Translations under genes and position numbers: made by a program | NCBI GenBank assembly: GCA_003327435.1 | Contig: QOQV01000001.1 | Location: forward strand, 124,001 to 188,000 | From: Ignavibacteriota bacterium | Lineage (GTDB): Bacteria > Bacteroidota > Ignavibacteria > UBA10030 > BY39 | Reading direction: 5' to 3' | Length of the DNA stretch: 64,000 nucleotides | Notes under the pieces: model-generated | Seen by the model: only the letters and a program-made list of their open reading frames with translations | Databases searched by the model: none | What the model was told of the DNA's origin: nothing | Shown: positions 3,159 through 40,134 of the stretch, one piece after another | Layout: each line of letters opens with the position of its first letter | Position numbering within the stretch: the first letter of the stretch is position 1

Positions 3159-4280
3159 TTAATTATGTACGACTAAAGATGACTTACCAAAAGATTTTTT
3201 TAACATCCAGATTACTGTTATCAATCCACCCAATAACAACAAAACAAATATCGTAATAACTCCCCACTGCGGTTCAACCTGAACTTTTTCCCAGTCTATA
3301 TAGGGTTTAAGATATGCTTCTCTCAGTTCGTGTCTCATCAAAACCATCATTACAACTGTTAATAATAAAAATACTTTACCAAACATAATTTTCATGACGG
3401 GTTTAACAGCATTGAGTGCAATAAACATAAATATTAAGCTTGCAAACATAGTGACGAGTGCAATCAAAAAGTATATGGTTGCATATATATTTTCTCCCAT
3501 AAAAAGCATCAACAAATTTTTCGGTAATGAAATTAAAAACCATAAACCGACAACTATATTAACAAGAGTAGGAATTATAAACCATAGCAATCCATATCTG
3601 ATTCCCCATTTACCAAGCTGCTCGTTTGACTTAATATTTTTAAGTCCCCACATTACTACTAACAATCCAGCCACAGCAAGTGCAGCTACCATAAAATGTA
3701 GATATCTGGGTATTACTGTTGGATCTGAAATATTTAAATTAGTTCCATGTGGATTATTAAAATAAATCTCTTTCCATTTTTCGGGTGTTAGCATCAGAAC
3801 TATATTTTGTGTGTAGATTAGTCCAATAATTGCTAAGAGAATTGCGCTTATTAAAACGACAGCGAATCTTTTACCATTAAGTTTTTCCCATCTAAAAGAG
3901 TACAAATAATAACCATAATAGGCTAAGATAAATATTACAATAATCGAAAGCCAGGGCCATGCAATCAATATTGTTGAAGTGTAAAAGAAATTTCCGTACA
4001 ATACTTGTAAGAACAATAATGGTGCAACGCCAAGAGTTATTGTAAACGCAGTAAATGGTGGAAGCATTTTGGAAATACTTCTGCTGAGTTCGAGGTGGTT
4101 TTGACTGTTTCTTTTCTTTCCTAAAAATTCTGTAATAGCTGCAATAAAGCCACCTCCAACTGCTACATTCATTGCAAGAATATGCAGTGTAAAAGTTAAC
4201 AATAATAAGACTTTAAGTAACCATAGTGGTGCCGGTACTGGGATTGGATCGATATCCGGGATAATAACTTGACTTTCCAT
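3159..4280 (-). CDS. CydA-like membrane protein without cytochrome c domain (third subunit of bd-like complex)
   Basis: A 373-residue protein with about nine membrane helices, related to the two upstream genes and distantly to cytochrome bd subunit I. Helix 1 has TLHILAMNVAVGGGF, where His33 matches the CydA haem ligand of helix 1. His195 in YLHFMVAALAVAG matches the second CydA haem His (E. coli His186), which both paralogues lack. The paired Glu residues of helix 3 are absent here, and the C-terminal REAYLKPY block has Leu in place of the Arg kept by its neighbours. I start it at ATG 4280, one base after the preceding stop, because AAAGGAG lies seven bases upstream; an upstream in-frame extension would overlap that gene. 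Alignments were made by eye. Confidence 0.65.
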   Translation of the reverse strand: MESQVIIPDIDPIPVPAPLWLLKVLLLLTFTLHILAMNVAVGGGFIAAITEFLGKKRNSQNHLELSRSISKMLPPFTAFTITLGVAPLLFLQVLYGNFFYTSTILIAWPWLSIIVIFILAYYGYYLYSFRWEKLNGKRFAVVLISAILLAIIGLIYTQNIVLMLTPEKWKEIYFNNPHGTNLNISDPTVIPRYLHFMVAALAVAGLLVVMWGLKNIKSNEQLGKWGIRYGLLWFIIPTLVNIVVGLWFLISLPKNLLMLFMGENIYATIYFLIALVTMFASLIFMFIALNAVKPVMKIMFGKVFLLLTVVMMVLMRHELREAYLKPYIDWEKVQVEPQWGVITIFVLLLLGGLITVIWMLKKSFGKSSLVVHN

Positions 4281-4281
4281 T

Positions 4282-5577
4282 TTATTGCTCCTTTCTATTT
4301 TCTTTATTAAACTGATATAACCATTTAGCAATTGCTTCAGCTTCAGCTTCATTGCCGGCAAATTTTGGCATATAGCCTCGATAATTTTCTAAATCATTAA
4401 TAATCATCGCAATTGTTTCTTCATCCAAATCAGAAATTAATGGTTTCACATCATTGTAACCATTAATAATATGACAACTTGCGCAGTATAGTTTAAACCC
4501 GACTTCGCCAGCTTGAAGTTTGTTTTCATCAGTGATTTCTTTAATCTTAGACCATTTTGAGGTTTTTAAAATTCCCTGTTCTTTGATTGAATCAAACTGG
4601 TTAATTAATAAACCGTTAGAGTACATATAATCATAAATCACATATGGTTTTCTTATTGACTCCCTAACTCTCTCACCAGCAAACATTATTGTTAATCCAA
4701 GAATCAATATTATTGTAGCAACGAATTTATTGAATAATCTGGTATTGAAATATCCCATAATCAAAACGAGCAAGAATATTAAAAAACCAGCAACAATTCC
4801 AATTATAGCAGTATTTGACACAAACGATATTCCACCTAACACTATCTCCTTTGGAATATCGGGTAATGTATAATAATACCAGAGGCTGGCAATTGGAAGT
4901 ATTAGCATAAATGGTATGACCCATTTACTTGAATATTTAATAATTTGCTGCCTATTTTCTTTTTCCACTAAGAAAGTTGCTGTAAACAAGCCATAAATTC
5001 CTGCCATTACAATTGCTGTAACAATCCGTACCACAAGAGATGAGAAGTATGTTGGATTAAAAAATCCATCCCAGAAGTTTTTTGTTTCGATCCATTTTCC
5101 AGGTGTAAGCATAAAAGATAATATACCATTAATGATTACCATACTAAGTAGTGCAGCAATAAAATAAATCCAACCAATTGCGAGGTGTGTTCTACGATCT
5201 ACTTTTTCCCAGCTGTAATAATAAATCATAACAGCTGCAATTTCTACGAAGAAAAATACCCATTCTATCGCCCATCCCCATACAAAAATATGTATCAATG
5301 CTGAAGTGGCTTGCGGACTTACAAGACCAATTGTGAACCATATTGCCACACCTGATAATGCGCCAAAAACAATTGTTAAGAGCAAGAAGAATTTAGAGTG
5401 TTTTTTTACATAATTTAAAATTACATTATTGTTAGTTTTATATGCTTTAATTTCAGAAAGCACAAGAAACAAACCACCCCCTACGGCAAAATGGGAAACA
5501 AACACATGAAGAATGGCAACTATTCCGATTAACCAGCCACCACCGACAAGGGGCACTTCCCAGAAAGGATAATTCAT
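4282..5577 (-). CDS. CydA-like oxidase subunit with C-terminal cytochrome c domain (copy 2)
   Basis: A 431-residue protein: about eight or nine membrane helices, then a cytochrome c domain. The N-terminal part matches CydA in order: ILHVFVSHFAVGGG (haem His), AIEWVFFFVEIAA (two acidic residues like E. coli Glu99/Glu107) and ESIRKPYVIYDYM (like the CydA Glu445/Arg448 block ExGRQPW). The position of CydA His186 is Arg in SLVVRIVTA. The c domain has CASCH with a likely axial Met in GYMPKF. It is a close paralogue of the next upstream gene and is spaced 19 bases from it, so the three genes form one operon. I infer a bd-superfamily oxygen reductase that receives electrons from cytochrome c; the substrate is unproven. 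Confidence 0.7.
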   Translation of the reverse strand: MNYPFWEVPLVGGGWLIGIVAILHVFVSHFAVGGGLFLVLSEIKAYKTNNNVILNYVKKHSKFFLLLTIVFGALSGVAIWFTIGLVSPQATSALIHIFVWGWAIEWVFFFVEIAAVMIYYYSWEKVDRRTHLAIGWIYFIAALLSMVIINGILSFMLTPGKWIETKNFWDGFFNPTYFSSLVVRIVTAIVMAGIYGLFTATFLVEKENRQQIIKYSSKWVIPFMLILPIASLWYYYTLPDIPKEIVLGGISFVSNTAIIGIVAGFLIFLLVLIMGYFNTRLFNKFVATIILILGLTIMFAGERVRESIRKPYVIYDYMYSNGLLINQFDSIKEQGILKTSKWSKIKEITDENKLQAGEVGFKLYCASCHIINGYNDVKPLISDLDEETIAMIINDLENYRGYMPKFAGNEAEAEAIAKWLYQFNKENRKEQ

Positions 5578-5596
5578 AGACTTGCTCCTTGATTTA

Positions 5597-6880
5597 TTAA
5601 TAGGATCTATTTAATTCATAAAGCCATTTAGCAAGAGCTTTTCTTTCCATTTCCGAACCCATAAATGGAGGCATAAATCCTTTGAGTTGATTTAAGTGTT
5701 GAAGTTGTGCGTCTATAAATGGTTCTTGCCAACCTTTAACAAGGATTTTTACTCCATTATAACCTTCTACGGTATGGCAACTCTGACATTGAAGTTTAAA
5801 AACCTGTTCACCAATTTTCAATGTATCAGTTTCAGTTTTGGTATCAATTATAGTCCATTTTGCGGATGCTAATACACCTGTCTGCTTAACATTCTCTTCA
5901 TTGACTTTTAAAACATTATTTGAATACATATAATCATATATGATATATGGTTTTCTAATAGCTTCACGTACCCACTCACTTACTGCTGTTACTGTTAAAC
6001 CCATGAGTAGAAATAGAGCAGATAATGCCACAGGAAATCTTTCAGGATGACGGTATGGAAGAAAATAAGCAAATCCGAAGATCAAGATCGAGAAGAAAAT
6101 ACTTGCAACAGCAAATAAAGTTACAGCTGGTGCACCACCGCTAATAATATCAAATGCCATTTCTGGAATCACCGAAACATACCATAAACCTCCAAGTGGT
6201 AAAATGAAGAAAGGCACGATTAACCATTTTGCTGAATATTTTACCATTAATTTTCTTAAATCTTCATTTTTTAAGTTAGAGGAAGTCAATAATGCATATA
6301 GACCAGCAAGTGCTAATGAAACAGCTGTTCTCATAATTAAAGATGGAAGCATTGTTGGATTGAAAAAAGCCGACCAGAAACTTCTATTCTCAATCCATGC
6401 TCCTGGAGTTAACATAAAGGATAAAATTCCGTTAATAACAAACAAGCTCATCCAGGCAGCTATAAAATATATCCAGCCAATTGTCAGATGAGTTTTTCTA
6501 TTTATCTTATCCCAGGTGTGATAATAAATCATTGCAGCAGCAATTTCGATGAAGAAAAAAATCCATTCTATTGCCCAACCCCAGACAAAGATGTGTATCA
6601 GAGCAGAGGTTGCAGTAGGTGTAACAAGTCCAATTGTAAACCAAATTCCAACACCAGTTAATGCTCCGAATACTAAAGTTACCAGGATAAAAAATCGTGA
6701 ATGTATTTTAAGATAATCTATTATACCTGAATTGTTTTCTTTATATGCTTTTATTTCAGTAAGCACTAGAAACAAGCCGCCACCAATTGCAAATTGGGAT
6801 ACAAATGTATGTATTATTGCTACCAATCCAATTAAAATTCCACCACCAATAAATGGAATATCCCAGAATGGATAATTCAT
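5597..6880 (-). CDS. CydA-like oxidase subunit with C-terminal cytochrome c domain (copy 1)
   Basis: A 427-residue paralogue of the following gene and first of the three-gene set. Residues matching CydA are His24 (IIHTFVSQFAIGGG), Glu105 and Glu112 (AIEWIFFFIEIAA), and Glu306/Arg309 in REAIRKPYIIYDYM. Arg184 stands where CydA has the second haem His. The C-terminal domain has haem c motif CQSCH (365-369) and Met403 as probable axial ligand. The quinol-binding Q-loop of canonical CydA is not recognisable, which fits cytochrome c rather than quinol as donor. It starts 37 bases after the NifU-domain gene and may be in the same transcript. Family placement rests on motif order, not on a search. 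Confidence 0.7.
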   Translation of the reverse strand: MNYPFWDIPFIGGGILIGLVAIIHTFVSQFAIGGGLFLVLTEIKAYKENNSGIIDYLKIHSRFFILVTLVFGALTGVGIWFTIGLVTPTATSALIHIFVWGWAIEWIFFFIEIAAAMIYYHTWDKINRKTHLTIGWIYFIAAWMSLFVINGILSFMLTPGAWIENRSFWSAFFNPTMLPSLIMRTAVSLALAGLYALLTSSNLKNEDLRKLMVKYSAKWLIVPFFILPLGGLWYVSVIPEMAFDIISGGAPAVTLFAVASIFFSILIFGFAYFLPYRHPERFPVALSALFLLMGLTVTAVSEWVREAIRKPYIIYDYMYSNNVLKVNEENVKQTGVLASAKWTIIDTKTETDTLKIGEQVFKLQCQSCHTVEGYNGVKILVKGWQEPFIDAQLQHLNQLKGFMPPFMGSEMERKALAKWLYELNRSY

Positions 6881-8313: not shown

Positions 8314-8766
8314 TTAATTTCGACCTTTTCGAATATACAAGATCACTTTCCAAATTTCTTCATCCGACATATAAGCACCAAGAGCGGGTGAAAATTTACC
8401 CCCATAATAAATATGAGAATAAAATTCTGAATCTGGTTTTGTTTTTACACTCAGTAAATTTAAATCGGTTGGTGGAACAGGAAATCCATATCCAACAGGA
8501 GTATTACCTTTCCAATCAGCACCATGGCAATGATAACAAAATTGTCTATATACTTTAGCTCCCATAATTAAATTTGTATCTGTTGACAAATATGGGTTTA
8601 TTGTTAAAACTTTCCCTTTATTCATTATAGATGATTTTACAATATTTTTAGGTATTTTTTGTTGAACAATTTTTGATGGTCTTGGATTTGGTTGATCATA
8701 CATTCTGCCATATTCACATCCAACCAAGAAAATTATTGTTAATACAAATATGTATTTATTTTTCAT
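8314..8766 (-). CDS. actE: Monohaem cytochrome c lipoprotein, probable ActE of alternative complex III
   Basis: A 150-residue lipoprotein. The N-terminus is a signal with lipobox LVGC (Cys17). One haem c motif, CYHCH, follows at about residues 79-83, and the C-terminal half has GFPVPPTDL and a WKVILYIRKG helix, the pattern of ActE-type cytochromes. ActE is the membrane-anchored monohaem subunit that takes electrons from the pentahaem ActA. Here it lies after the cbb3 genes instead of between actD and actF. A free cbb3-associated cytochrome is the alternative; the lack of another actE candidate in the operon favours ActE. Confidence 0.65.
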   Translation of the reverse strand: MKNKYIFVLTIIFLVGCEYGRMYDQPNPRPSKIVQQKIPKNIVKSSIMNKGKVLTINPYLSTDTNLIMGAKVYRQFCYHCHGADWKGNTPVGYGFPVPPTDLNLLSVKTKPDSEFYSHIYYGGKFSPALGAYMSDEEIWKVILYIRKGRN

Positions 8767-9020: not shown

Positions 9021-9284
9021 CTAAAAATTGAATCCCCAAATTGCTACTGCACCAACATAAATAATTGCCCATAGAAAATATGCAATATAAAGTATTATTA
9101 AAAATAGGGGAATAGGTTTGTTGCCTTCTTTAATCCCTTCTGGAAATTCAGCAAGGTGTTCATCTCTTTTCTGATTTATTGTTCTAAATGTGTTAATCGC
9201 AATATAAAAAAATGTAACCAATATTATTCCGCCGAATATAGCCAGAATAACATATTGTGTTTGTAACAATTCATATGGTGGCAT
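9021..9284 (-). CDS. Haem-free protein resembling the CcoP (FixP) N-terminal membrane anchor
   Basis: An 87-residue protein with two membrane helices (about residues 11-31 and 58-83). The stretch FPEGIKEGNKPIPLFLIILY recalls the CcoP N-terminal domain, where DGIxExDNPLPxWW leads into a helix. Canonical CcoP continues into two haem c domains; this protein stops with none. The missing cytochrome c domain appears instead on the fused CcoO gene of the same operon. I infer a split CcoP anchor that docks on CcoN. The similarity is short and judged by eye. It starts 14 bases after the ccoS-like gene. Confidence 0.5.
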   Translation of the reverse strand: MPPYELLQTQYVILAIFGGIILVTFFYIAINTFRTINQKRDEHLAEFPEGIKEGNKPIPLFLIILYIAYFLWAIIYVGAVAIWGFNF

Positions 9285-9298
9285 ATTATTTCTTCCTT

Positions 9299-9574
9299 CT
9301 ATAAATTATGAAATACGACAAATAACATACGGATAATCGTTGCAAGCGACAGGAAAACAACTACCATTAAAGCGATTAATTCGATGGACCAAACAAATTT
9401 TATTTTTTTATTATCTACACCGTGATTTTTTATATTCATTGGTGGATTAGAAAATGGTAAATATTTTGCCCTTTCTTGTTCTTCAAACTGGCCTCTTTTC
9501 ACAGCCCAATAGAATATCCACATGGATAGGGTCAGACCTACAATCATAAATAATATCCAGAATTGTAAAAACAT
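9299..9574 (-). CDS. ccoS: CcoS-like cbb3 oxidase assembly protein with an added membrane helix
   Basis: A 91-residue protein. Helix 1 leads straight into WIFYWAVKRGQFEEQE, matching the CcoS signature FLWAVxSGQFDD. CcoS is needed for maturation of cbb3 oxidases, probably for cofactor delivery to CcoN. Typical CcoS has one helix and 50-70 residues; this protein has a second helix (about 62-86). It sits three bases after the fused ccoO gene, as expected for a cbb3 operon. The function follows from the motif and the neighbourhood. Confidence 0.6.
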   Translation of the reverse strand: MFLQFWILFMIVGLTLSMWIFYWAVKRGQFEEQERAKYLPFSNPPMNIKNHGVDNKKIKFVWSIELIALMVVVFLSLATIIRMLFVVFHNL

Positions 9575-9577
9575 AAA

Positions 9578-10546
9578 TCATTCTCCTTTATATTTTTTAA
9601 TTTCTATCGAATCGACTGGTTCATAAGATGCATCTATTCCACGGGGCTCAAGATTAGCATCTTTTTTTCCTACGAAATTTATCATTATATAATTGGATAC
9701 ATCCCAGATTTTTTCTGACTCTAATTCCCTTTTGAAATAGGGCATTGCTGTACCTGTGATTCCATTCATAATTTGATAATAGAAGATTCCGCTTGAAGCA
9801 CCCGTTCTTTTCAGTAAAGTAAAATTTAGTGGTGGGGGATTTAAATATTTTGCTGCAGGACCCTGTCCATCTCCTACTGGTCCATGGCATCCTATGCAAA
9901 AGGATTGGTAAATCCTTTCGCCTCGTTTTAGAGACGCTTCAGTAGCTGGATAAGGGTTAGGCATATTAATCCACATTTCTGGAACATTTCGATGAAGTAT
10001 CGCAACATTAGAATCCGGACCTTTATTATAAGCGTCAACAAGTATTTTATTCCAATATTTTTGTCGAGCAACTCGAGCATCTGCTTCCTTACCACCCAAA
10101 CTCTGAATATAACTGGTTAAGGCACGGATTTTTTTATCACCTAAAAATTCAAAAGGGGGCATAATTGATTCTGGTCTTGTATATCTGGGATTTACAAAAT
10201 GTGCATAGTGCCAATCATCAGGATGTTCACCACCGGCATTTGACAAATCAGGCCCAGTACGAATTGAACCCAATAAAATTGGTTCATCATTTACATAATC
10301 ACCTTCCTGGGCAATACGGTCTGCACCAAGGTCCCAATCCTGTGGACGGATATACTGAGAATGACAATAAGTACAACCGTTTTCTATGTAGATTTTTCGA
10401 CCTTCCTCTTCAATTTGGGTTCGCTTACGTACAATATCTGATGGTGTTATTTGAGCTTGATATGTTGGAATTATCACCACAATCACAAATATAATTATAA
10501 AAATCAGCAATGTACCCACTAAAAGGACACTAGTCGTCATTTTCAT
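9578..10546 (-). CDS. ccoO: cbb3 oxidase subunit II fused to a second cytochrome c domain (CcoO-c)
   Basis: A 322-residue membrane-anchored dihaem protein. After one N-terminal helix (7-28) comes the CcoO domain: GRKIYIENGCTYCHSQYIRP gives the first haem c, followed by GSIRTGPDLSNAGG, HPDDWHYAHF and PESIMPPF, all standard CcoO blocks. From about residue 205 a second cytochrome c domain follows with CIGCHGPVGDGQGP and a likely axial Met in GTAMPYF. Normal CcoO has one haem; the extra domain looks like one CcoP haem domain moved here. The ATG overlaps the ccoN stop (ATGA). Electrons would pass through these haems to CcoN. Confidence 0.9.
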   Translation of the reverse strand: MKMTTSVLLVGTLLIFIIIFVIVVIIPTYQAQITPSDIVRKRTQIEEEGRKIYIENGCTYCHSQYIRPQDWDLGADRIAQEGDYVNDEPILLGSIRTGPDLSNAGGEHPDDWHYAHFVNPRYTRPESIMPPFEFLGDKKIRALTSYIQSLGGKEADARVARQKYWNKILVDAYNKGPDSNVAILHRNVPEMWINMPNPYPATEASLKRGERIYQSFCIGCHGPVGDGQGPAAKYLNPPPLNFTLLKRTGASSGIFYYQIMNGITGTAMPYFKRELESEKIWDVSNYIMINFVGKKDANLEPRGIDASYEPVDSIEIKKYKGE

Positions 10547-11904
10547 ACAGATCTAATCTCCTTTCCTTTTACTAAAGTCATTATTACATTATAAAATCCG
10601 ATGATAAAACCTGCAACTATTAGAACACCAAGTAGAGCTCTTATAGTAAAGTATGGTACCATTTCAGGTAGTACCCTGTATATTGTTTCACCATGAAGCC
10701 AAGAACTCCCCTGGACAAGTCCTACAGCAGTGAGTACCAGGAAAAATCCATTAACACCAATCATCAATAACCAATATTGAAAATTTGCCAGGGTTTTGGA
10801 ATAAATTTCCCGACCGGAAACTTTTGGAAGAAAATAATACATTGCTCCTACTGCAATAAAACCAGCAAATCCTAATAAAGCTAAATGTGCGTGAGCCACG
10901 ACCCAATTGTTAAAATGCGTTATTCTTTGAACTGATGGTAACGACTGCAACGGCCCTTGAATACAAACGATAAAATAGAAGAATGTACCCGCAAAAACAT
11001 ACTTCCCTGCAATTTCTTTATAAAAAGTACTAAATCTTTCTTTTAAAGGTAACCATACATTAGTTAGAAAAGTCATAACAGGAACAAGCATACCAATTGA
11101 ATCAACGATAGAAATAACTTTTAACCATTGTGGAACTGGAGCTTGAATAAGGTGGTGCGTACCAATATGTGTATACATAACAAGTAACATCCAGAAACCA
11201 ATTAATGAAAGTGTATGACTGTAGATTGGTGCACCCGTGACTCGAGGAATAATATAATATGCAGCAGCAACCGCTAATGGTGTAAGTAGAAGGCCAAATA
11301 TATTATGACCATAAAACCATAGCCATATTGCGTCTGTCGTACCTTTTAAGGCACCTGTTTCTGGATTCCAGACAACATTACCAAGTGTATATAAAACAGA
11401 TGTCCATATAAATGCACCTGCTATATACCAGAGTGATACAAACATAAGATTTTCTTTTCTATTAAGAATGGTCTTTACAACAACAAAAGTTAGTATCAAA
11501 AAACTGATTATGACCAAAATATCTATAGGCCAGATCAATTCTGCATATTCTCTGCCTTGAGTTTTTCCTCCAGATAGAGTAAATACAGCTGCGGCAGTAA
11601 AAATATTCCAGATTATCATTGCTATATTTGCTAATCTCTCACTGTAAAGTTTAGTTTGTGTAAGAAGAGGTACCAAATATAGAGCTGTTCCAATTAAAGA
11701 AGGGGTTAGAAATCCAAAAAGGACGAGATTTATATGTATTGGTCGAATTCGTCCGAAAAGTAATTCGGGAATATTAGCAAAAATATCGGGAGCCACTAAC
11801 TCAACGGCAGCGGTTAGACCATACAAAGTTGCTACACAAACCCAAAATGCAGAGCTGATATAAAAATTTTTGGCAGCACTATTTGGTTTATCTAAAAATT
11901 TCAC
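10543..11904 (-). CDS. ccoN: cbb3-type cytochrome c oxidase catalytic subunit I
   Basis: A 453-residue haem-copper oxidase subunit with about 12 helices. It shows IRPIHINLVLFGF (low-spin haem His), WFYGHNIFGLLLTPLAVAAAYY (Cu-B His and the helix-VII Tyr used by cbb3 enzymes), IGTHHLIQ (Cu-B His pair) and VVAHAHLALLGF (haem ligands). It reduces O2 to water and pumps protons at high oxygen affinity. I set the start at GTG 11904: AGGAGA lies seven bases upstream and the N-terminus then reads VKFLDKPN. An upstream in-frame ATG would overlap actA and lacks a ribosome site. It follows actA by 20 bases, which joins oxidase and ACIII in one unit. Confidence 0.93.
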   Translation of the reverse strand: MKFLDKPNSAAKNFYISSAFWVCVATLYGLTAAVELVAPDIFANIPELLFGRIRPIHINLVLFGFLTPSLIGTALYLVPLLTQTKLYSERLANIAMIIWNIFTAAAVFTLSGGKTQGREYAELIWPIDILVIISFLILTFVVVKTILNRKENLMFVSLWYIAGAFIWTSVLYTLGNVVWNPETGALKGTTDAIWLWFYGHNIFGLLLTPLAVAAAYYIIPRVTGAPIYSHTLSLIGFWMLLVMYTHIGTHHLIQAPVPQWLKVISIVDSIGMLVPVMTFLTNVWLPLKERFSTFYKEIAGKYVFAGTFFYFIVCIQGPLQSLPSVQRITHFNNWVVAHAHLALLGFAGFIAVGAMYYFLPKVSGREIYSKTLANFQYWLLMIGVNGFFLVLTAVGLVQGSSWLHGETIYRVLPEMVPYFTIRALLGVLIVAGFIIGFYNVIMTLVKGKEIRSV

Positions 11905-11924
11905 AATACATTCTCCTAAATTTT

Positions 11925-12464
11925 TTAATGATGACAGACATAACATTCTACTGATGCATTATTTTGCCGATGACAGGTTACACAAAATTCCATTTTAGTT
12001 TGAAATGATTGAGTTACACGATCCATTTGTTCAATATTTCCATGGCATGTTTTACATTCTACACCAAGAACAATATGTCTTTTATGATTAAAGAATACGA
12101 AATCCGGTTGAAAGAATATGCGCTTCCATTGTATAGGTTTCTTCTCATCGTAATATCTATGTAACTTTTGTATTTCAGGATGTTGAGGAATAATATATTT
12201 ATGACAACTGATACACAATTCTACTGGTGGCATTCCTGGATAGGGCGATCTATCCACATAACTATGACAATATTTACAATCTATCTCTTTATCAGTTACA
12301 TGCAATCTATGACTGAAAGGAATCGGCTGCATTGCTCCAATTCTTTTCTCAGGATATATATAAACCAGATACAACATAATTAAGGTTGTCGCAAAAACAA
12401 ATATAATTAAAAACCACTTGTATAATGGTTTAAAAGGTTTTTCGCTTGTATTGATATCGTTCAT
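11925..12464 (-). CDS. actA: Pentahaem cytochrome c subunit of alternative complex III
   Basis: A 179-residue protein with one N-terminal membrane helix (about 15-37) and five haem c motifs: CKYCH, CISCH, CKTCH, CVTCH and CYVCH. PIPFSHRLHV and FFNHKRHIVLG supply the distal His residues usual for multihaem class III-like cytochromes. ActA is the pentahaem electron wire of ACIII. In most operons actA comes first; here it comes last of the membrane-core genes and directly before ccoN. Its start overlaps the actF stop by four bases. A NapC/Fcc-like cytochrome is unlikely given the surrounding act genes. Confidence 0.9.
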   Translation of the reverse strand: MNDINTSEKPFKPLYKWFLIIFVFATTLIMLYLVYIYPEKRIGAMQPIPFSHRLHVTDKEIDCKYCHSYVDRSPYPGMPPVELCISCHKYIIPQHPEIQKLHRYYDEKKPIQWKRIFFQPDFVFFNHKRHIVLGVECKTCHGNIEQMDRVTQSFQTKMEFCVTCHRQNNASVECYVCHH

Positions 12465-13711
12465 TTTTCTCCTTCTAAAGAATGTTTTAAAAGCGGATCA
12501 CCAAAAGCTATCATTGGGTATTTATTCCAGAAATAATTAATAGATGACATAAAGATACCCAAAAATCCAATCGTTATTGCAATTTGTATAAAATTAATAG
12601 TAAAAACTTCTGTATTAGAAACCGCTGGTGCAATTAACAAATTTCTTTCAAGCCAGTATCCCAGAAGAATACCTGCTGATATTAGCTTCATAGCATTTGG
12701 GTTCATTTTAATTTTTTTCCTTAACAAAATTATAAATGGTGCAACAAATGAAAGTATCAAAACTATATATGCTATAGTAATCCAGGGTTGATGTTGTGTT
12801 CTTTCAATGATGTAATGTGTTTCTTCCGGTAAATTCCCATACCATATAACAAGAAATTGTGAATAGAAAAAGTCACCATTCACAATTGCGAAACCAAAAA
12901 GTAGTTTTCCCAAATCATGTAAGTGATTTGGTTGAATTATTTTACCCTCTGGTCGTTTTTGAAATAATGTAACTAATATTATTGTCAATGCAATACCCAT
13001 ATAGAAACATCCAATAAAATAATATGCACCGAAAAGTGTACTTACCCAGTGTGGATCCAATGACATAACCACATCTATAGCAAAAAGAGAGTATAGCACA
13101 GCATATAAAATTGCAATTATAGTGCTCATTCGATAGAGTTTGTTGTATTCGTTTTCTTCATTTAGTGTTTTATCTATTTTTACTAAGCTTTGAAATCTTT
13201 TTGGAATATTTGCAGGTTCATAAATTTTTAGTAGATCAAGCCGTATTGAACTGCGTACATAAATATAACTTAGAATTGTCAACACAATCAGGTAAAATGC
13301 TACTCTAGATAACATAAATGTAGGATTTAGATAAGCCGCTTTGTGGACAATTGGTTCATTAAACCAGCTGTACAAATAATCTGCTCCAAATACTAAAATT
13401 ATAAAAAGAACCAATGATATAGGAAGGAAATAAATTGTACTTTCGGCTATTCTGATTATTGGTCTTCCCCACTTAGCATTGGTTAGTCTTAGAACTACAG
13501 ATAAAATTATAGAACCCTGCGCAAGTCCAGTCCAGAATACAAAATTAATCAAAAATGCTTGATAAGTATGTTTCACATTGCCTAAAATCAAGCCATAAGC
13601 AAAAGCTAAAATTCCTATCATTAGAAATACAATAGTATAACTTGTAAAGAGTTTCTTCTCTTCTGAATTAAGTGAATTTACCAAAATATTTTTTAGATCC
13701 TGTCTATTCAT
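12461..13711 (-). CDS. actF: Alternative complex III NrfD-like membrane subunit ActF
   Basis: A 416-residue membrane protein with about ten helices of the NrfD/PsrC type. It is a distant paralogue of ActC: both have a WTGLAQGS or WVGIAHSG turn and a SLDPHWVSTLFGAYYFIG or VPGWHSTIFAPYFVAG block. ActF is the more divergent of the two quinol-site/proton-channel subunits of ACIII. The start overlaps actD by eight bases and the stop overlaps actA by four, so translation is coupled. The assignment of F rather than C rests on order after actD and on the shorter sequence. Confidence 0.85.
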   Translation of the reverse strand: MNRQDLKNILVNSLNSEEKKLFTSYTIVFLMIGILAFAYGLILGNVKHTYQAFLINFVFWTGLAQGSIILSVVLRLTNAKWGRPIIRIAESTIYFLPISLVLFIILVFGADYLYSWFNEPIVHKAAYLNPTFMLSRVAFYLIVLTILSYIYVRSSIRLDLLKIYEPANIPKRFQSLVKIDKTLNEENEYNKLYRMSTIIAILYAVLYSLFAIDVVMSLDPHWVSTLFGAYYFIGCFYMGIALTIILVTLFQKRPEGKIIQPNHLHDLGKLLFGFAIVNGDFFYSQFLVIWYGNLPEETHYIIERTQHQPWITIAYIVLILSFVAPFIILLRKKIKMNPNAMKLISAGILLGYWLERNLLIAPAVSNTEVFTINFIQIAITIGFLGIFMSSINYFWNKYPMIAFGDPLLKHSLEGEK

Positions 13712-14207
13712 AATAGATGTCCTTTGCTCCTAGGGAACTTAATTTTTCCTTCAAAGAATTGACTTCATTTTCTTTTATTTCTATAGATATACCGAACTTA
13801 TCGATTGTAAAATCAGGTTTGTAACCTGGAAATTTTTTATACGATGGAAATTTTCCCTTTATAATCAATCCAAGCAATGTAGCTAATGCTCCAAAAAGAA
13901 TTGTGAATTCGAAGCCAATTACCAGAAATGGTATTAATGTAACAGGAGGTTTACCTCCCAAGGTTAAGTTCCACTGTGCTGAAGTATAGATAGCCAAACC
14001 AAAACCGGTTACCAATCCAATTATTGCTCCTGTAAGTGTGAACCATCCAACCTTGCTTGATTTTAAATTTAATGCTTTTTCTATTTCATGATTTGGGACA
14101 GGCGAATACAAAGAAAATTTTATGTGTTCGGAATTTAAATATTTGATCGCATTTATAAGTTTATTAACATCCGAGAATGATGCCGTTAAAAATATATTGC
14201 TATTCAT
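13704..14207 (-). CDS. actD: Alternative complex III subunit ActD (DUF3341)
   Basis: A 167-residue protein with a short N-terminal alpha/beta domain (residues 1-50), two membrane helices (about 55-79 and 92-115, with TGAIIGLVTGFGLAIYTSAQWN), and a C-terminal ferredoxin-fold-like tail. DUF3341 proteins are the ActD subunits that pack against ActC and ActF. No cofactor ligands are seen. It overlaps both neighbours by eight bases. Length and hydrophobic pattern match the family. Confidence 0.88.
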   Translation of the reverse strand: MNSNIFLTASFSDVNKLINAIKYLNSEHIKFSLYSPVPNHEIEKALNLKSSKVGWFTLTGAIIGLVTGFGLAIYTSAQWNLTLGGKPPVTLIPFLVIGFEFTILFGALATLLGLIIKGKFPSYKKFPGYKPDFTIDKFGISIEIKENEVNSLKEKLSSLGAKDIYYE

Positions 14208-15522
14208 GGTCGACTTCCTTTTTGTTTAAAGGGATTAGTTCTTTCACCTCAGTAATTGAAATAGATGGAAGAAATTTTGCAAAAAGGAAAAATAGCGTCA
14301 GGAAGAAACCCCAACTACCAAGAGAAATACCAATTTCAACCCAGGTTGGTGCATAATTGCCCCAGGCTGCTGGTAAAAAGTCGTGAGCTAATGATGTGAC
14401 TATTATAACATATCTTTCAAACCACATTCCAACATTTATAAGAATAGAAATTACAAGCAACCATGTTAAGTTAGTTCTAAATTTTTTAATAAAAAAGAGT
14501 AAGGGGAATACAGAATTACAGAGGACCATAATCCAGAATGCCAGAGCATAATCGCCGCTCGCTCTCCATTTAAATATCGCTAATTCATATGGATTTCCGC
14601 TATACCAGGCAATGAAGTATTCAATTGCATATGCATATCCCACAATTAATCCTGTTAGTAGAATTACCTTAGCCATATTTTCAAAATTGTTAATTGTAAT
14701 TAGTTTTTCTACTTTAAAAATTTTTCTGAGTGGAATAAGCAATGTTATTACGAGTGCGAGACCAGAATGTATTGCACCAGCAACAAAATAAGGTGCGAAT
14801 ATTGTACTGTGCCAACCTGGTACTATAGACAAGGCAAAATCCCATGATACCACGCTATGTACAGAAATTACAAGCGGTGTAGCAAGGGCTGCAAAGAATA
14901 AATATGCTCTACTGTAATGAAGCCATTGTTCCTGTGTACCGTGCCAACCAAATGATAATATCGTGTAAAATTTTTTCCTCCACCCAGTCGATTTTTCTCT
15001 TGCAGCGGCAATATCAGGTACAAGACCAATTAAAAAGAAAGTTGCACTTACAGTTAAATATGTAGTAATTGCAATCACATCCATCACAAGGGGTGATTTA
15101 AAATTTGGCCAGAGCAACATTTCGTTTGGATATGGAAAAATCCAGTAAGCCACCCAGACTCTTCCAAGATGAATTAGAGGATACATTCCAGCTGTAGCCA
15201 CAGCGAATACCGTCATTGCTTCTGCACTTCTATAGATGGACATTCTCCATTCAGCTCTGAATAGATATAAAATTGCTGAGATTAACGTACCGGAATGTGC
15301 AATACCAACCCAGAAAACAAAATTTGTAATAAAAACCCCCCACATAACTGGATGTCGGATACCTGCAACTCCAAGTCCAGATAAAATCATATAAAGCCAT
15401 ATACTCATCCCTGCTGCAAAAACAAGTGCAAAAAAACCAACAATAACATAATAATATTTCTTAGGCGGAGTTAGTGTCGAAAGTACCAGTTCGTTCACAT
15501 CTTTATAGCTTAAGTTTTCCAT
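14200..15522 (-). CDS. actC: Alternative complex III NrfD-like quinol-oxidising subunit ActC
   Basis: A 440-residue polytopic protein of the NrfD/PsrC family with about ten helices. Typical segments are GVFITNFVFWVGIAHSGTLI, AMTVFAVATAGMYPLIHLGR and VPGWHSTIFAPYFVAGAIHSG. ActC provides the quinol-binding site and a proton half-channel and sits under the Fe-S subunit ActB. I use ATG 15522; an in-frame TTG two codons upstream is less likely. It follows actB by 24 bases and overlaps actD by eight. Confidence 0.9.
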   Translation of the reverse strand: MENLSYKDVNELVLSTLTPPKKYYYVIVGFFALVFAAGMSIWLYMILSGLGVAGIRHPVMWGVFITNFVFWVGIAHSGTLISAILYLFRAEWRMSIYRSAEAMTVFAVATAGMYPLIHLGRVWVAYWIFPYPNEMLLWPNFKSPLVMDVIAITTYLTVSATFFLIGLVPDIAAAREKSTGWRKKFYTILSFGWHGTQEQWLHYSRAYLFFAALATPLVISVHSVVSWDFALSIVPGWHSTIFAPYFVAGAIHSGLALVITLLIPLRKIFKVEKLITINNFENMAKVILLTGLIVGYAYAIEYFIAWYSGNPYELAIFKWRASGDYALAFWIMVLCNSVFPLLFFIKKFRTNLTWLLVISILINVGMWFERYVIIVTSLAHDFLPAAWGNYAPTWVEIGISLGSWGFFLTLFFLFAKFLPSISITEVKELIPLNKKEVDHE

Positions 15523-15546
15523 AGTCAATCTTTCTATCCTCTCATT

Positions 15547-18366
15547 TTATTTTTTAATAAATTCATCTTTAATAACCCTTTTTAAATAAGTAATTGCTGA
15601 ACGAGTGTTATATTCCTCAAGCACCCTGTAAGCTCTTGGATTGTTTTTTAATCGACTTACTTGAGAATTTTCATCTAACAAATTACCAAATACAAGTGCA
15701 TTTGTTGGACAGGTTTGCACGCATGCTGGTTGTATTTCACCATCAACAATCTCACGAAATTCATCTTTTGCTTTATTTTTGGCTTCAATTATCCTCTGAA
15801 CACAGAATGTACATTTTTCCATGACTCCCTTGTCCCTTACAGTAACATCAGGATTCAACTGCAAATATGTAGGATAGGGATGTTCATAACTGAACCAATT
15901 AAAACGCCTGACTTTATAAGGACAGTTATTTGAACAATATCTCGTACCGATACAACGATTATAAACCTGAACATTTAAACCATCTTTGCTATGGTAAGCT
16001 GCATAGACTGGACAGACAGGTTCACAAGGAGCATTTTCACAGTGCTGACACATCATAGGTATGAACCGATTGCCATAATCGAAAAATTCTTCTTCCAGAT
16101 ATCTTTCAATTCTAATCCAATGCATTTCTCTTCCCTTCGAGACCAATTCTTTACCAACTGTTGGTATGTTATTTTCAGCGAAACAAGCTACTACACATGC
16201 CCCACATCCTATACATTTATCAAGATCAACAGCCATTCCCCACCTATAATTTTCATGTTTAACTTCAGGATACATATTTATTTCTTCAATATCCTCTTTC
16301 TTTTTTCCAACCTCTGAAGCTAAAATGCTTCTGGCTATATTTCTTCGATATTGCAAGTCGGTATCACTTGGAGATACCAGTTTTATCCATTTCCCCGTTT
16401 TATTAACACTTATGTTTACTGCTTCCCAAATTCGTTTATTCAATAAAGGAATAGGTGAATATCCAATATTTGTAGCATTTCGACCAAAGTTTTGATGGCC
16501 AAGACCGAAAACAATCAACCCAGTGTGGTATTCAACATCTCTGGAGACTCGAACTGGTACTTCCAATTTACCGTTTGAATTGCTTAACTCGATAACATCA
16601 TAATTTTTAATATTCTGGTGTTCAGCAAACTTGTCATTAAGAATTAAATAATTATCCCAAACGATTGAATTATACGCATCAGGTAATTCGTTCAACAATG
16701 TACTATTCGCACCTCTACCATCATAGTATTTATAAGAAGGAACTGATATTAATTTTAGATTTTCAAAGTCATCCTGGTATGATGGTTTATGTACTGAGCT
16801 CGCGGTCAATTTAATTTCAATTGGTTTCTCTCTTCCTTTGAGTTCAAAACCCTTACCAAATGCTTTTTCTAAAATCCCTTTATCGGATTTAAATTCTTGA
16901 TAGATATACTCATATAAATCGTTTACATTTTTCAATTTTGAACCAAATATTTGCTCATAAAATTTTAGGATATAATCTCCAGTAGTTGAAACACCAAACA
17001 CACTTTCCATAACAGGTTGCATAAAGTTTCTCGTCAGGTTATCTGGTTCATAAGATCCCCATTCTTCGTAAGATGTATTGATTGGTAAGACATACTTTGC
17101 GTATTGAGTTGTTTCATTCATTACAGGAGAAAACGCAACGATGGTTTTTATATTTTTTAAAGCTTCAATAAATTTTGTTTTGTTCGACAGTGTGAAAATC
17201 GGATTTGTATTTATCAAAAATAATACATCGTATTTGTGATTAATTGCATCGTCAGTAAATTTATCAATTTCATCATCTGTCGATATGTATGAATATGATA
17301 GTGGAATATCCAAGAAAATATTTTTACCAATTGCGCCGATTAAATAATTAATTAACATCAGGGCAATCTGTGTATCCTCGTCACATGAAATTCCACCAAG
17401 AACTACAGGATTGTTGCTTTTCAAAATTTTATTTGCAACTAATTTTATATCATCTTCTTTTATGAAAATTTTCGTTGCAACATTTTCTGAAGTAAATCCG
17501 TCACAGAATTGTTTTGCAAGTGGATTTGGTATTGATTTCGTAATTTCATTCAATAGAGCTAATGCAAAAAGTTTTTCACCTCCAGGAGGTATTTTTATCC
17601 ACATATCAGCCATATTACCTGTAATTCCAAGATATGGACTTATGTGTATAAAAAGGTTAGTCCGTCCAAGGTTGGGATCTGAGCTTTCATACAACTGTCT
17701 GGAAAATTCAACAGGAGATATATATGTTTCCAGAATATCAGCCGATAATGAAATTATCAAATCCGCATTTTCAAGAGATATTTTTGGAACAACAGATTTA
17801 TTAAACAATTTCTTGCAAGCATTTCTAATCGAGGTATAATTGACTGCTTCATATACCAATTTTGTATTTGAACCAATCGCACTTATAAAATCATCTATGC
17901 ACCTGGATAAAGCACCGGTATTTAGCTCGGTAATGACAGCAATTCTTTCACCTTTTTTATCTTTCAATAACACTTTTATTTGTTCAGCAATATCGCTTAC
18001 TATTAATTCAACATCAATTGGAACAAAGTTTCCGTTATCAGATTTTAATTGAGCTTGAATTAATCTATCGGGATTATATAGTTCCTGTAGTCCCGCCTGA
18101 CCTCTTGCACAAAGTTTACCCTTGTTAATTGGATGTTCTGGATTACCCTCAATTTTAACAGCTCTACCTTCTCTACATTTAATCAATATACCACATCCAG
18201 CCGGACATTGTCTACAAGTTGAAGCATACCAATCAGCTACACCCGGTACGATGTCTTCAGGTGGTATTACATATGGTACTATTAATCTCTGTGTTTCTGT
18301 TTTACACCCGGCGAATATACCGGCTCCGGTCAATCCAAGTATCTGTAAGAAAGTTTTTCTATTCAT
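15547..18366 (-). CDS. actB: Alternative complex III Fe-S / molybdopterin-like subunit ActB
   Basis: A 939-residue two-part protein. Residues 1-20 form a Tat-like signal (NRKTFLQILG, Lys in place of the second Arg) with lipobox FAGC. Residues 45-650 are a molybdopterin-oxidoreductase-like domain (B1). Residues 700-900 are a PsrB/DmsB-like ferredoxin domain (B2) with four Cys groups: CIGCGACVVAC, CQHCENAPCEPVC, CIGTRYCSNNC and CTFCVQR...CVQTC. B2 carries electrons from quinol toward ActA. B1 keeps a full C51-x2-C54-x3-C58-x27-C86 motif, although many described ActB proteins have lost it. It follows the copper ATPase by 26 bases and is the first act gene. Confidence 0.93.
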   Translation of the reverse strand: MNRKTFLQILGLTGAGIFAGCKTETQRLIVPYVIPPEDIVPGVADWYASTCRQCPAGCGILIKCREGRAVKIEGNPEHPINKGKLCARGQAGLQELYNPDRLIQAQLKSDNGNFVPIDVELIVSDIAEQIKVLLKDKKGERIAVITELNTGALSRCIDDFISAIGSNTKLVYEAVNYTSIRNACKKLFNKSVVPKISLENADLIISLSADILETYISPVEFSRQLYESSDPNLGRTNLFIHISPYLGITGNMADMWIKIPPGGEKLFALALLNEITKSIPNPLAKQFCDGFTSENVATKIFIKEDDIKLVANKILKSNNPVVLGGISCDEDTQIALMLINYLIGAIGKNIFLDIPLSYSYISTDDEIDKFTDDAINHKYDVLFLINTNPIFTLSNKTKFIEALKNIKTIVAFSPVMNETTQYAKYVLPINTSYEEWGSYEPDNLTRNFMQPVMESVFGVSTTGDYILKFYEQIFGSKLKNVNDLYEYIYQEFKSDKGILEKAFGKGFELKGREKPIEIKLTASSVHKPSYQDDFENLKLISVPSYKYYDGRGANSTLLNELPDAYNSIVWDNYLILNDKFAEHQNIKNYDVIELSNSNGKLEVPVRVSRDVEYHTGLIVFGLGHQNFGRNATNIGYSPIPLLNKRIWEAVNISVNKTGKWIKLVSPSDTDLQYRRNIARSILASEVGKKKEDIEEINMYPEVKHENYRWGMAVDLDKCIGCGACVVACFAENNIPTVGKELVSKGREMHWIRIERYLEEEFFDYGNRFIPMMCQHCENAPCEPVCPVYAAYHSKDGLNVQVYNRCIGTRYCSNNCPYKVRRFNWFSYEHPYPTYLQLNPDVTVRDKGVMEKCTFCVQRIIEAKNKAKDEFREIVDGEIQPACVQTCPTNALVFGNLLDENSQVSRLKNNPRAYRVLEEYNTRSAITYLKRVIKDEFIKK

Positions 18367-37055: not shown

Positions 37056-38399
37056 CTACCTTTTGTTCAATATTAAATCAGCACATAAAAATCCACTTGT
37101 TACAGCACTTTCTATAGTCGCGGGTAAGCCAGTATTAGTCCAATCACCTGCAATATAAAAATTTTCAATCTCGGTTTCCTGGTTAGGTCGATATTTCTCA
37201 GCTTCAGGTGATGCGGAAAATGTAGCCCTACGTTCCTTTATAACACTGTAATGAATTAATTTAGATTTTTCAATTTTAGAAAAATTAGTTCTTAATTCTT
37301 CCATTGCTAAAGATATAATTTGATCCTTTTTCTTTTCCAATATTGACCTGGCATTACTTATAACCGCTGTTAAATGATTTAATCGATTATTATTTTCCTT
37401 TAATATTCTGTTACGATTGAATAACCACTGGACATTTGTATTTATTAAACCGACAAACTGGTCATCCATGATTTCTTGATCAAACCACAAGTTTATTGAG
37501 ATTATTGGAGAAGAATTGAAATTTTTAATTCCATAGAACTGATTGATATTATGATATTTTTCGGATAGCAGATTTAAAATATTAAAATTTTCGACTGCAC
37601 TTATTACATATTTAGATTCTATCAATTTCTCTTTAATATAGACACCCTTAACCTTACTGCCTTCGATTAGTAATTTATCAACTCTTTGATTCATAACAAT
37701 TTTAGATTTATGCACCTTGATAAACTCGACAGCTTTATCAACATACAATTCGCTCTGACCCACAGATGGTAGCCAGATTCTATTATTTTCATCTTTAGAT
37801 AAATATGTATTATTAAGTACTTTAGCAAACAATAAAGCAGATGCGATATCTGGTGATTCATTCATAACAGATATTACCAGAGGATTCCAGAAATATTTTT
37901 TAACATTTTCACTCTGCTCATAACTATTTAGAAAATTTTCTATGCTTTTTTCTTTAATATTTTCTGCAAAATCTCGACCCCACCTTTTAATATCCTTTAC
38001 AATTTTTATCAGATTTATTTTATCATTCATTGAGAGGGGGTATAATGCTAAAAATCCAAAAAATAAATTAAATGGAGGAGGAAGAATATCACACGTATGA
38101 ATTTTATAGCAATATTTACCATTCTCAATAAAATTTAATGATTTCGGATTCTTTGGACTTAGTAAGTCCCTTGTTCCTATCATTTCCAAATACTTAAATG
38201 TATTTTTATAAGCGCCAACAAGAATATGTTGACCATTATCTACGACACTATTTGTATTTTTGTCTCTGAATGAATAAGTTCGTCCACCGAGGTGATTATT
38301 TTTTTCAATGATCAATACATTAGCACCTGCTTGAACCAATTTAATAGATGCTGAAAGACCTGCTAATCCTCCACCTATAATGATAATATCAGGACTCAT
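37056..38399 (-). CDS. hpnE: Hydroxysqualene dehydroxylase HpnE
   Basis: A 447-residue FAD-dependent amine-oxidase-fold enzyme. The dinucleotide site is IIIGGGLAGLSASIKL, followed by IIEKNNHLGGRTYSF. DNGQHILVGAYKNT is a hallmark of HpnE, and the C-terminal FAD block is YIAGDWTNTGLPATIESAV. HpnE reduces hydroxysqualene to squalene, the last step of the HpnCDE route. The ATG overlaps the hpnD stop by four bases. A phytoene-type desaturase is the alternative, but the hpnCD neighbours decide it. Confidence 0.88.
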   Translation of the reverse strand: MSPDIIIIGGGLAGLSASIKLVQAGANVLIIEKNNHLGGRTYSFRDKNTNSVVDNGQHILVGAYKNTFKYLEMIGTRDLLSPKNPKSLNFIENGKYCYKIHTCDILPPPFNLFFGFLALYPLSMNDKINLIKIVKDIKRWGRDFAENIKEKSIENFLNSYEQSENVKKYFWNPLVISVMNESPDIASALLFAKVLNNTYLSKDENNRIWLPSVGQSELYVDKAVEFIKVHKSKIVMNQRVDKLLIEGSKVKGVYIKEKLIESKYVISAVENFNILNLLSEKYHNINQFYGIKNFNSSPIISINLWFDQEIMDDQFVGLINTNVQWLFNRNRILKENNNRLNHLTAVISNARSILEKKKDQIISLAMEELRTNFSKIEKSKLIHYSVIKERRATFSASPEAEKYRPNQETEIENFYIAGDWTNTGLPATIESAVTSGFLCADLILNKR

Positions 38400-39244
38400 G
38401 CCATTTTTAATATTTTAATTTTAACGAAATATTTAATCGCAATTAGCATTTTCATAAAAATCGAAAGTCGTATTGTTTTATCGAAAACCTTGTAATTATT
38501 CTTTTTTATTTTCTTTAATGTACGAAAATATATTCTTTCCATAATTTTTGGAGCAAGTAATTTGATTTTATCTTCTGGCTTTAAAATGTTTCTTGCTCTT
38601 TCATAATATTCTTCAGCTCTTTTTGTTTCGTACTCCATTAAACTAAAAAAATTATCATTATAAATCCCTTGAATTAAATCTGCCTCGGTATAATTAAATT
38701 TCTGTAAATCCTCAACTGGAACATATATCCTGTTTAACTTAGCATCTAATTTTATATCTCTTAATATATTTGTTAATTGCAAAGCAATTCCAAGATTTTC
38801 TGCATACTTTATAATGCGTTCGTTTTCTTCGGTGAAAATCTTAATTACCATCAATCCTACCGATGAAGCTACAAGTCGACAATATTCCTCTAATTCCTGA
38901 AAATTTTTATATCTATTCTTATATAAATCCATTTCCACACCTCTAATCAGGTCATAGAAATGTTGTACGGGAATATTAAATTTCTTTGCGGTTTCTGTAA
39001 GTTTATTTAGAAGTGCATACTTTGATTCACCCTTCAGAGCTTTACCTAATTCTATTCTCCAATGTCTAATGTATAAAACTTTTTTATTTTGTTCTAAATC
39101 CCCATCGACAATGTCATCTGTTGCTCTGCAAAAATCATAAATAGTCATAATTGCCTGCCGTTGGACTTTGGGTAAAACTAAAAACGATAGTTTAAAACTT
39201 GAGCTATATCCCTGATCAAGTATGTTAGTTAATTCAAATCCCAT
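38396..39244 (-). CDS. hpnD: Presqualene diphosphate synthase HpnD
   Basis: A 282-residue trans-isoprenyl diphosphate synthase of the squalene/phytoene family. The two Mg-binding motifs are FCRATDDIVDG and ILRDIKLDAKLNRIYVP. It condenses two farnesyl diphosphates to presqualene diphosphate. Its start overlaps hpnC by 16 bases. It is assigned HpnD because it directly precedes hpnE and follows a more divergent copy; a swap with HpnC cannot be fully excluded by eye. Confidence 0.83.
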   Translation of the reverse strand: MGFELTNILDQGYSSSFKLSFLVLPKVQRQAIMTIYDFCRATDDIVDGDLEQNKKVLYIRHWRIELGKALKGESKYALLNKLTETAKKFNIPVQHFYDLIRGVEMDLYKNRYKNFQELEEYCRLVASSVGLMVIKIFTEENERIIKYAENLGIALQLTNILRDIKLDAKLNRIYVPVEDLQKFNYTEADLIQGIYNDNFFSLMEYETKRAEEYYERARNILKPEDKIKLLAPKIMERIYFRTLKKIKKNNYKVFDKTIRLSIFMKMLIAIKYFVKIKILKMA

Positions 39245-40134
39245 AAACTCTTTTTCTTATATAAACTAACATTGTTATAAAAAAGTCCTCTCAGAAATAT
39301 CATAATTTTATTCCCCAAACTTAATTTTACATTATCTTCAAATACATTATACTTTTTTTTGATGATCTTATTTAAAACAGACATACCACCAAACCATACT
39401 AAGCGTAATTCCAATTGCAAATCCTTATCAACCAGATTTATTAATTCTGCTCCCTTGTAAAAAAGTTGTCGTGCTCTTTCAATCTGGAATTGCATCAATT
39501 TAATAAAATTCTGATTATAAACTTTGGCAAACAACTCTTCATAAGAATAGCCATATGATATAATTTCATCTTCAGGAAGATAAACTCTATTTTTTAACAA
39601 ATCAACAGAGACATCCTGAGCAAAATTCGTAAGCTGAAGTGCTGTACATATACAATCTGATAAATGGAATAATTTATCATCTTTGTAACCAAAAATCATT
39701 AGAACCAATCTACCTACAGGGTTTGCAGAATGTTTACAATATGTTAGAAGTTCCTCTGAACTTTTATACCTGTTTTTCTGAACATCCATTTTAAAGGCGT
39801 ATATTAAATTCGCAAGAGGTTCAATAGGTATACTTAGTTTACTAACAGTTTCCGACAAAGCAATGAAGACAGGGTGTTGAGCTTCACCCTTATAACACAT
39901 CTTTAGTTGCTCTTCCCAATCATCTAATAATTTTATTCGTTCAATAGGAGAGAGATTAGATTCATCTGCAAAATCATCAGCTAACCTTGCAAATGCATAT
40001 ATACTCTGGATGTAAGGTCTTTTTTCATAAGGGATGAGTAAAGAAGCTACAGGAAAGTTTTCATAGTGATCCCGAGTGATTTTCGCACAATACTCAAATG
40101 CTTTATCGACGCTATTTTTCTGTAAAATATCCAT
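39229..40134 (-). CDS. hpnC: Hydroxysqualene synthase HpnC
   Basis: A 301-residue member of the squalene/phytoene synthase family. It has YAFARLADDFADE as first Asp motif and NFAQDVSVDLLKNRVYLP as second. The FDALED-like end of ordinary phytoene synthases is replaced. The enzyme turns presqualene diphosphate into hydroxysqualene. It is first of the three-gene hpnC-D-E unit. The 100 bases upstream are shared with the divergent tRNA gene; a weaker minus-strand promoter candidate (TTG, 21 bases, TATCTTTT) lies there. Confidence 0.83.
   Translation of the reverse strand: MDILQKNSVDKAFEYCAKITRDHYENFPVASLLIPYEKRPYIQSIYAFARLADDFADESNLSPIERIKLLDDWEEQLKMCYKGEAQHPVFIALSETVSKLSIPIEPLANLIYAFKMDVQKNRYKSSEELLTYCKHSANPVGRLVLMIFGYKDDKLFHLSDCICTALQLTNFAQDVSVDLLKNRVYLPEDEIISYGYSYEELFAKVYNQNFIKLMQFQIERARQLFYKGAELINLVDKDLQLELRLVWFGGMSVLNKIIKKKYNVFEDNVKLSLGNKIMIFLRGLFYNNVSLYKKKSLWDLN

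Follow-up and report, generated by a model that had tools for sequence, protein, structure and literature searches.

A putative cytochrome c-oxidizing enzyme of the bd superfamily, encoded without CydB in an Ignavibacteriota genome

Three CydA-related genes and their conserved residues

Three co-directional genes, here called P3, P2 and P1, lie on the minus strand of a 64,000-nucleotide stretch of DNA from an Ignavibacteriota bacterium (contig QOQV01000001.1, positions 124,001 to 188,000; the whole stretch is referred to as the window), and they are the subject of this study. An earlier interpretation made without database searches (the sequence-only reading) had described them as a CydA-like set. 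The three open reading frames (ORFs) are indeed present, and profile searches did not place any of their products outside the bd oxidase superfamily. The genes follow one another as P3 (6880-5597), P2 (5577-4282) and P1 (4280-3159), each with a ribosome-binding site directly upstream:

5597..6880, minus strand: P3, a CydA-like core with 8 predicted transmembrane (TM) helices and a C-terminal mono-haem cytochrome c domain, catalytic-type, copy 1 (PF01654, 1.1e-16; PF13442, 6.9e-09; fold match to CydA 5doq_A); residues H24, E105, E112, E306 and R309, CXXCH at residue 365
4282..5577, minus strand: P2, a second CydA-like core with a cytochrome c domain (PF01654, 9.5e-21; PF13442, 2.9e-06)
3159..4280, minus strand: P1, a CydA-derived partner subunit with 9 predicted TM helices, without a cytochrome c domain

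P1 starts at the ATG at 4280, behind AAAGGAG and one base past the P2 stop codon, giving a product of 373 amino acids whose start agrees with those of its relatives. A 400-residue ORF from the TTG at 4361, inside P2, was considered and rejected as an artefact of the longest-ORF rule.

P2 and P3 are 53% identical, and both exceed the Pfam cut-off for PF01654 (CydA) in addition to carrying the PF13442 cytochrome c domain at the C-terminus. We compared their residues with H19, E99, E107, H186, M393, E445 and R448 of E. coli CydA, whose positions were checked. The equivalents of H19, of both helix-III Glu residues, and of E445 and R448 are kept in both proteins, with the ExxRKPY block in place, just as had been read from the sequence. 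The equivalent of H186, the b558 His, is missing, and in an ungapped alignment of this region anchored at NPT and AG its place is taken by Met in P3 and Val in P2. The sequence-only reading had put an Arg at this position, but the Arg stands one residue further on. The region between helices VI and VII is reduced to about 14 residues, and the Q-loop is absent. This, together with the CXXCH-bearing domain of both proteins, supports the earlier suggestion that cytochrome c is the likely donor.

The wider conservation of these residues was surveyed in 27 homologues of P2 and P3 (the CydA-c family) and in 27 homologues of P1. The His, both helix-III Glu, the Glu and Arg of the ExxR block, and CXXCH are retained together in 23 of the 27 CydA-c proteins. 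The other four, which form one clade (L065-L068), have lost haem-site residues and CXXCH alike, which indicates that the two are kept or lost together. The Arg after the H186 position is invariant in all 27, including these four, which lack the equivalents of the His, Glu99, Glu445 and Arg448 as well as CXXCH, which makes it improbable that this Arg stands in for a haem ligand. No conserved Met was found in the helix VII region among the CydA-c family, and the His/Met ligand set of b558 is thus missing. In bd oxidases, the low-spin b558 is ligated by His/Met and the two high-spin haems by His/Glu (PMC8951039). Compared with these ligands, P2 and P3 each appear to hold a complete high-spin haem site and no b558, and therefore each could be catalytic alone.

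Two further features concern the architecture of the catalytic-type subunits. The helix-III Glu residues of P2 and P3 are spaced by 7, as in the Geobacillus enzyme, whereas the E. coli spacing is 8, owing to an inserted Leu that has been tied to the E. coli-type haem arrangement (PMC8951039). Since every bd oxidase except the Geobacillus one has an O2 channel from CydB (PMC8951039), the Geobacillus-type spacing would be coherent with a CydB-less enzyme whose O2 site is reached directly from the membrane. P3 is predicted to have its 8 TM helices followed by a soluble domain; its N-terminus and cytochrome c domain share one face of the membrane, which the positive-inside charge count of the TM loops assigns to the periplasm.

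P1 is less easily recognized. Neither Pfam nor NCBIfam has a model that matched it, and seven diverse P1 homologues gave no family match above any cut-off; a match of P1 to Castor_Poll_mid (Pfam, 0.071, below cut-off) is due to chance. However, a profile of P1 and two homologues matches Geobacillus CydA (5doq_A) at 3e-7, P1 matches P3 at 1.4e-13, and hhalign aligns the P1 and CydA-c families over 305 columns (E 8.7e-14). By these profile comparisons, P1 is a member of the CydA superfamily. It was also considered as a CydB homologue, but hhalign shows no significant match to E. coli CydB (E 0.25); its model fold does resemble CydB in Foldseek, as expected within the superfamily. The best Foldseek matches for the P1 and P3 models are bd oxidase subunit I chains (E ~1e-5, probability 1.00). 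These AlphaFold models were built from 6 sequences and included no homologues from the genome survey or plasmid records.

In the P1 family, the helix-I His is conserved without exception across the 27 homologues, and P1 also retains the Glu of the ExxR block, which reads ExxL in this protein. The helix-III Glu pair is absent, while a His occupies the E. coli H186 position in helix V and a second His (RHxxRE) lies near the ExxR block. The sequence-only reading had correctly recorded the helix-V His and the missing Glu pair, but had overlooked the helix-I His and the ExxR-block Glu. Only 8 of the 27 P1 homologues share the helix-V His; for the most part it goes together with the RHxxRE His, in the window branch and in Agrobacterium, L050 and L051.

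A two-gene unit and its duplication

A contig scan with P1 gave one near relative only, and the wider survey was done on a genome collection, in which 395 Bacteroidota genomes were searched with CydA-c and with P1. The two were found in the identical 21 genomes, which span at least 7 families and 12 genera, and at the thresholds used CydA-c occurred without P1 in none. The P1 matches in three more genomes are all weak (E 1e-13 to 1e-20; ORFs of 423-456 residues), and these are presumed to be other CydA-like proteins. The chance of a random 21-genome set coinciding in this way is ~10^-35, a figure that is too small since the genomes are related. Twenty of these genomes carry both genes on a single contig, in every case side by side or at a distance of 1.5-2 kb, and where they are not adjacent, only Rieske and cytochrome b genes intervene. 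The pair is also found on plasmids of Thermus, Methylosinus and Agrobacterium, from two other phyla, where the P1-type partner is annotated as 'hypothetical protein' (Thermus and Methylosinus) or 'cytochrome C' (Agrobacterium). The pattern suggests that CydA-c and P1 form a two-subunit module, encoded by a CydAA'-type gene pair whose second paralogue is degenerate.

The presence of a third gene is a local matter. Within the family to which the window belongs (f1), two CydA-c genes are present in the genomes G000, G001 and G004, while G003 has one, of the P2 type, and no P3; the duplication was found in this family only. This distribution marks the third gene as the product of a lineage-specific duplication upon the two-gene plan. 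In our tree, P3-type proteins group weakly with the single copy of another family, and the age of the duplication is therefore uncertain.

Several variants of the pair were seen in the survey. At L049 (6091-7440), a P1 homologue ends in a cytochrome c domain of its own (CXXCH at residue 380) and lies beside a cytochrome c-bearing CydA-c. At L051 (3543-6221) and L052 (7940-10630), CydA-c lies beside a P1 gene and is fused to a long multihaem tail with 8 CXXCH in all and Pfam matches of the MtrC/MtrF-like and cytochrome c7 kinds. It may be a bd-type oxidase that either receives electrons from extracellular electron transfer or supplies them to it. In L053, L055-L057 and L059-L062, the order is P1, Rieske, cytochrome b and CydA-c, a cassette that encodes a bc-type complex with a bd-type oxidase. 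L065-L068 (family f22) have the same Rieske/cytochrome b cassette beside caa3 oxidase genes; there, CXXCH and nearly all haem-site residues are gone from the CydA-like protein, and the helix-I His of P1 is kept. On the plasmids, the Methylosinus pair (L071, 6983-11925) lies beside methanobactin genes and the Agrobacterium pair (L014, 4409-8953) beside tra genes, in both cases followed by a sensor kinase and a response regulator.

Respiratory context and proposed function

The absence of a CydB-like gene, noted earlier for the locus, extends to the whole genome: no PF02322 match was found anywhere in this 98.6% complete assembly, nor any canonical or other CydA, so that its bd-type composition is CydA-only. 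The genome has one haem-copper oxidase (a single COX1 match), which is the neighboring cbb3 enzyme. The genes for alternative complex III (ACIII), which catalyzes the quinol to cytochrome c step, for cbb3, for a mono-haem cytochrome c, and for ATPase and NifU-like proteins form a string in the same direction, followed by P3-P2-P1:

11925..18366, minus strand: ACIII genes, with further matches to Molybdop_Fe4S4 (9.3e-17) and cytochrome c7 (7.1e-11)
15547-18366, minus strand: ActB
14200-15528, minus strand: ActC/NrfD (NrfD, 5.8e-23)
13704-14207, minus strand: ActD (PF11821, 1.9e-40)
12461-13711, minus strand: ActF-like, assigned by position only
11925-12464, minus strand: pentahaem ActA-like
9021..11946, minus strand: cbb3-type oxidase genes (PF00115, 1.9e-79; PF02433, 3.7e-36)
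10543-11946, minus strand: CcoN, part of the cbb3 genes
9578-10546, minus strand: CcoO/P fusion, part of the cbb3 genes, besides small subunits
8314..8766, minus strand: small mono-haem cytochrome c, lipoprotein-like (PF13442, 7.9e-09; PF00034, 1e-06), a possible electron carrier

The co-directional ApbC/Mrp-type ATPase and NifU-like genes upstream of P3 were named by reading their sequences, not by profile search, and a ZIP metal transporter gene lies downstream of P1. Elsewhere in the window, three consecutive HpnCDE-like squalene pathway genes (37056-40134; two squalene/phytoene synthase-like proteins and one amine oxidase-like protein) were likewise recognized by eye, and an Rfam scan gave a single match, a tRNA at 40235-40308.

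Homology, conserved residues, gene order, co-occurrence and duplication, all observed in the data, lead us to propose, with a probability of about 0.7, that P1-P3 constitute a CydB-less O2 reductase of the bd superfamily that oxidizes cytochrome c. ACIII would oxidize quinol and reduce a periplasmic cytochrome c, which would in turn reduce the covalent haem c domain of P2 or P3. From there, electrons would pass to a pair of high-spin haems, occupying the site formed by the helix-I His, helix-III Glu and ExxR Glu ligands, where O2 would be reduced; that O2 is the substrate we infer from the conservation of this site. P1, the degenerate paralogue, would fill the structural place of CydB as an obligate partner. 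The enzyme would give the cell, besides cbb3, another oxidase for cytochrome c, and the simplest chain would run from quinol via ACIII and cytochrome c to either of the two. Since the catalytic subunit is duplicated, the enzyme is probably a P2-P1 / P3-P1 pair of isoenzymes or a higher assembly, and a fixed heterotrimer is not required. P1 might also bind haem through its helix-I His, with the helix-V and RHxxRE His residues added in the window branch, and relay electrons across between CydA paralogues, one relay serving the two catalytic subunits; we consider this unlikely, and know of no precedent for such an architecture among bd oxidases.

Some points weigh against the proposed cytochrome c:O2 reductase. 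We found no biochemistry on any member of the family in the open literature searched. As P2 and P3 lack b558 ligands, the connection between haem c and the active site is a proposal, and the existence of degenerate members (L065-L068) makes a non-catalytic role possible for some. The AlphaFold models are also of middling quality (pLDDT 61-62, pTM 0.62-0.63).

A different purpose for the same cytochrome c-fed site, namely scavenging of O2 or nitric oxide (NO) instead of energy-conserving respiration, is possible, with a detoxifying role or NO reduction as its function. This is a frequent role of canonical bd oxidases (PMC5492636 for Melioribacter; PMC10839748), and the plasmid-borne pairs of Agrobacterium and Methylosinus precede a two-component system. 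However, the window copy sits among the respiratory genes of ACIII and cbb3, not among stress or denitrification genes, and we regard scavenging as a minority prospect.

The sequence-only reading had favored a complementary loss of ligands, with those of one CydA divided over three subunits. In its strict form, an obligate heterotrimer to which P1 gives the His of the low-spin haem, it could explain why P1 of the window carries the helix-V His that P2 and P3 miss, in addition to the RHxxRE His. But each window CydA-c protein has a full high-spin site, the helix-V His is present in 8/27 P1 homologues although the partnership is universal, no conserved Met is seen in P1 as a second b558 ligand, the relative G003 does without P3, and the conserved unit is a pair. 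We therefore find the ligand-split heterotrimer improbable. Ligand sharing is possible in the window branch, but it is not what unites a family in which the helix-I His is found in 27/27 members.

It is more doubtful that the proteins are no oxidase at all, and that they serve as an electron-transfer or structural module on ACIII or bc, the quinol-cytochrome c complexes, with a haem site that only relays electrons. Families f40 and f22 do have the pair on either side of Rieske and cytochrome b genes, and the CydA-like protein of f22 is without haem-site residues. Yet the catalytic-type residues are all invariant in the window branch, as in the 23 homologues counted above, and in the window the cbb3 genes intervene between ACIII and this cluster, which carries ribosome-binding sites of its own. 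Finally, oxidation of quinol at a novel site, perhaps in P1, which could house a quinone like E. coli CydB (PMC8951039), is hardly credible given that the Q-loop is absent in all three proteins and that both catalytic subunits carry a cytochrome c domain.

Relation to known enzymes and significance

The OR-C family, so named for its cytochrome c domain, belongs to a classification that reportedly originates from Murali, Gennis and Hemp 2021. The classes qOR, OR-C and OR-N, of which the sequence-only reading had named OR-C, are in published use (PMC10839748, PMC13189123, PMC11707229), and cytochrome c-oxidizing CydAA' enzymes have been proposed before (PMC10839748, PMC12342949, PMC13189123). 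With OR-C taken as the class without a quinol site in which a cytochrome c domain is fused to CydA, the best reading of P2/P3 with P1 is that they are of the OR-C kind, with which they share the CydA-type core, the cytochrome c domain and the lack of a quinol site and of CydB; no named OR-C1 subfamily turned up in the literature searched.

The archaeal CydAA' of Caldivirga is said (Murali 2021) to be a heterodimer of two CydA paralogues that acts as a quinol oxidase; the two-paralogue plan is alike, whereas the window set has no quinol site. With canonical CydAB (Geobacillus 5doq, E. coli bd-I), it has in common the fold, the helix-I His, the helix-III Glu pair and the ExxR block, but it lacks CydB, the Q-loop and the b558 His, and has an added cytochrome c domain. 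The OR-N CydAA' enzymes of Nitrospirota and Nitrospinota are likewise proposed to comprise two CydA paralogues and to have cytochrome c as donor (PMC12342949, PMC10839748), and in Nitrospirales an OR-N5 CydAA' pair is encoded directly downstream of ACIII in an analogous arrangement (PMC12342949). Unlike these, the catalytic CydA of the window has a fused haem c domain, and the bd-like protein of Nitrospina has 14 TM helices (PMC3578206) against 8 in P2 and P3 and 9 in P1. In Manganitrophus, the bd-like proteins of the terminal oxidase complexes TO_3/TO_4 are encoded with complex III or ACIII-like parts (PMC9040806), comparable to the f40 and f22 variants, whereas in the window the cbb3 genes lie between ACIII and the bd-like genes. 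The enzyme class is thus known, and what appears to be new is the duplicated OR-C-like subunit together with an unannotated, degenerate CydA partner; neither is described in the open literature searched, although the founding paper on OR-C might describe P1-type partners.

Almost all that is known of bd oxidases fed by cytochrome c comes from sequence. A two-subunit module with an unannotated partner, strict co-occurrence and clear conserved residues offers a defined system to purify for the first time, and such work would tell whether the bd fold can oxidize cytochrome c with O2 and what takes the place of CydB. In genomes like the one studied here, it may also be an oxidase that annotation has overlooked, its pair being labeled 'cytochrome c' and 'hypothetical protein' in plasmid records.

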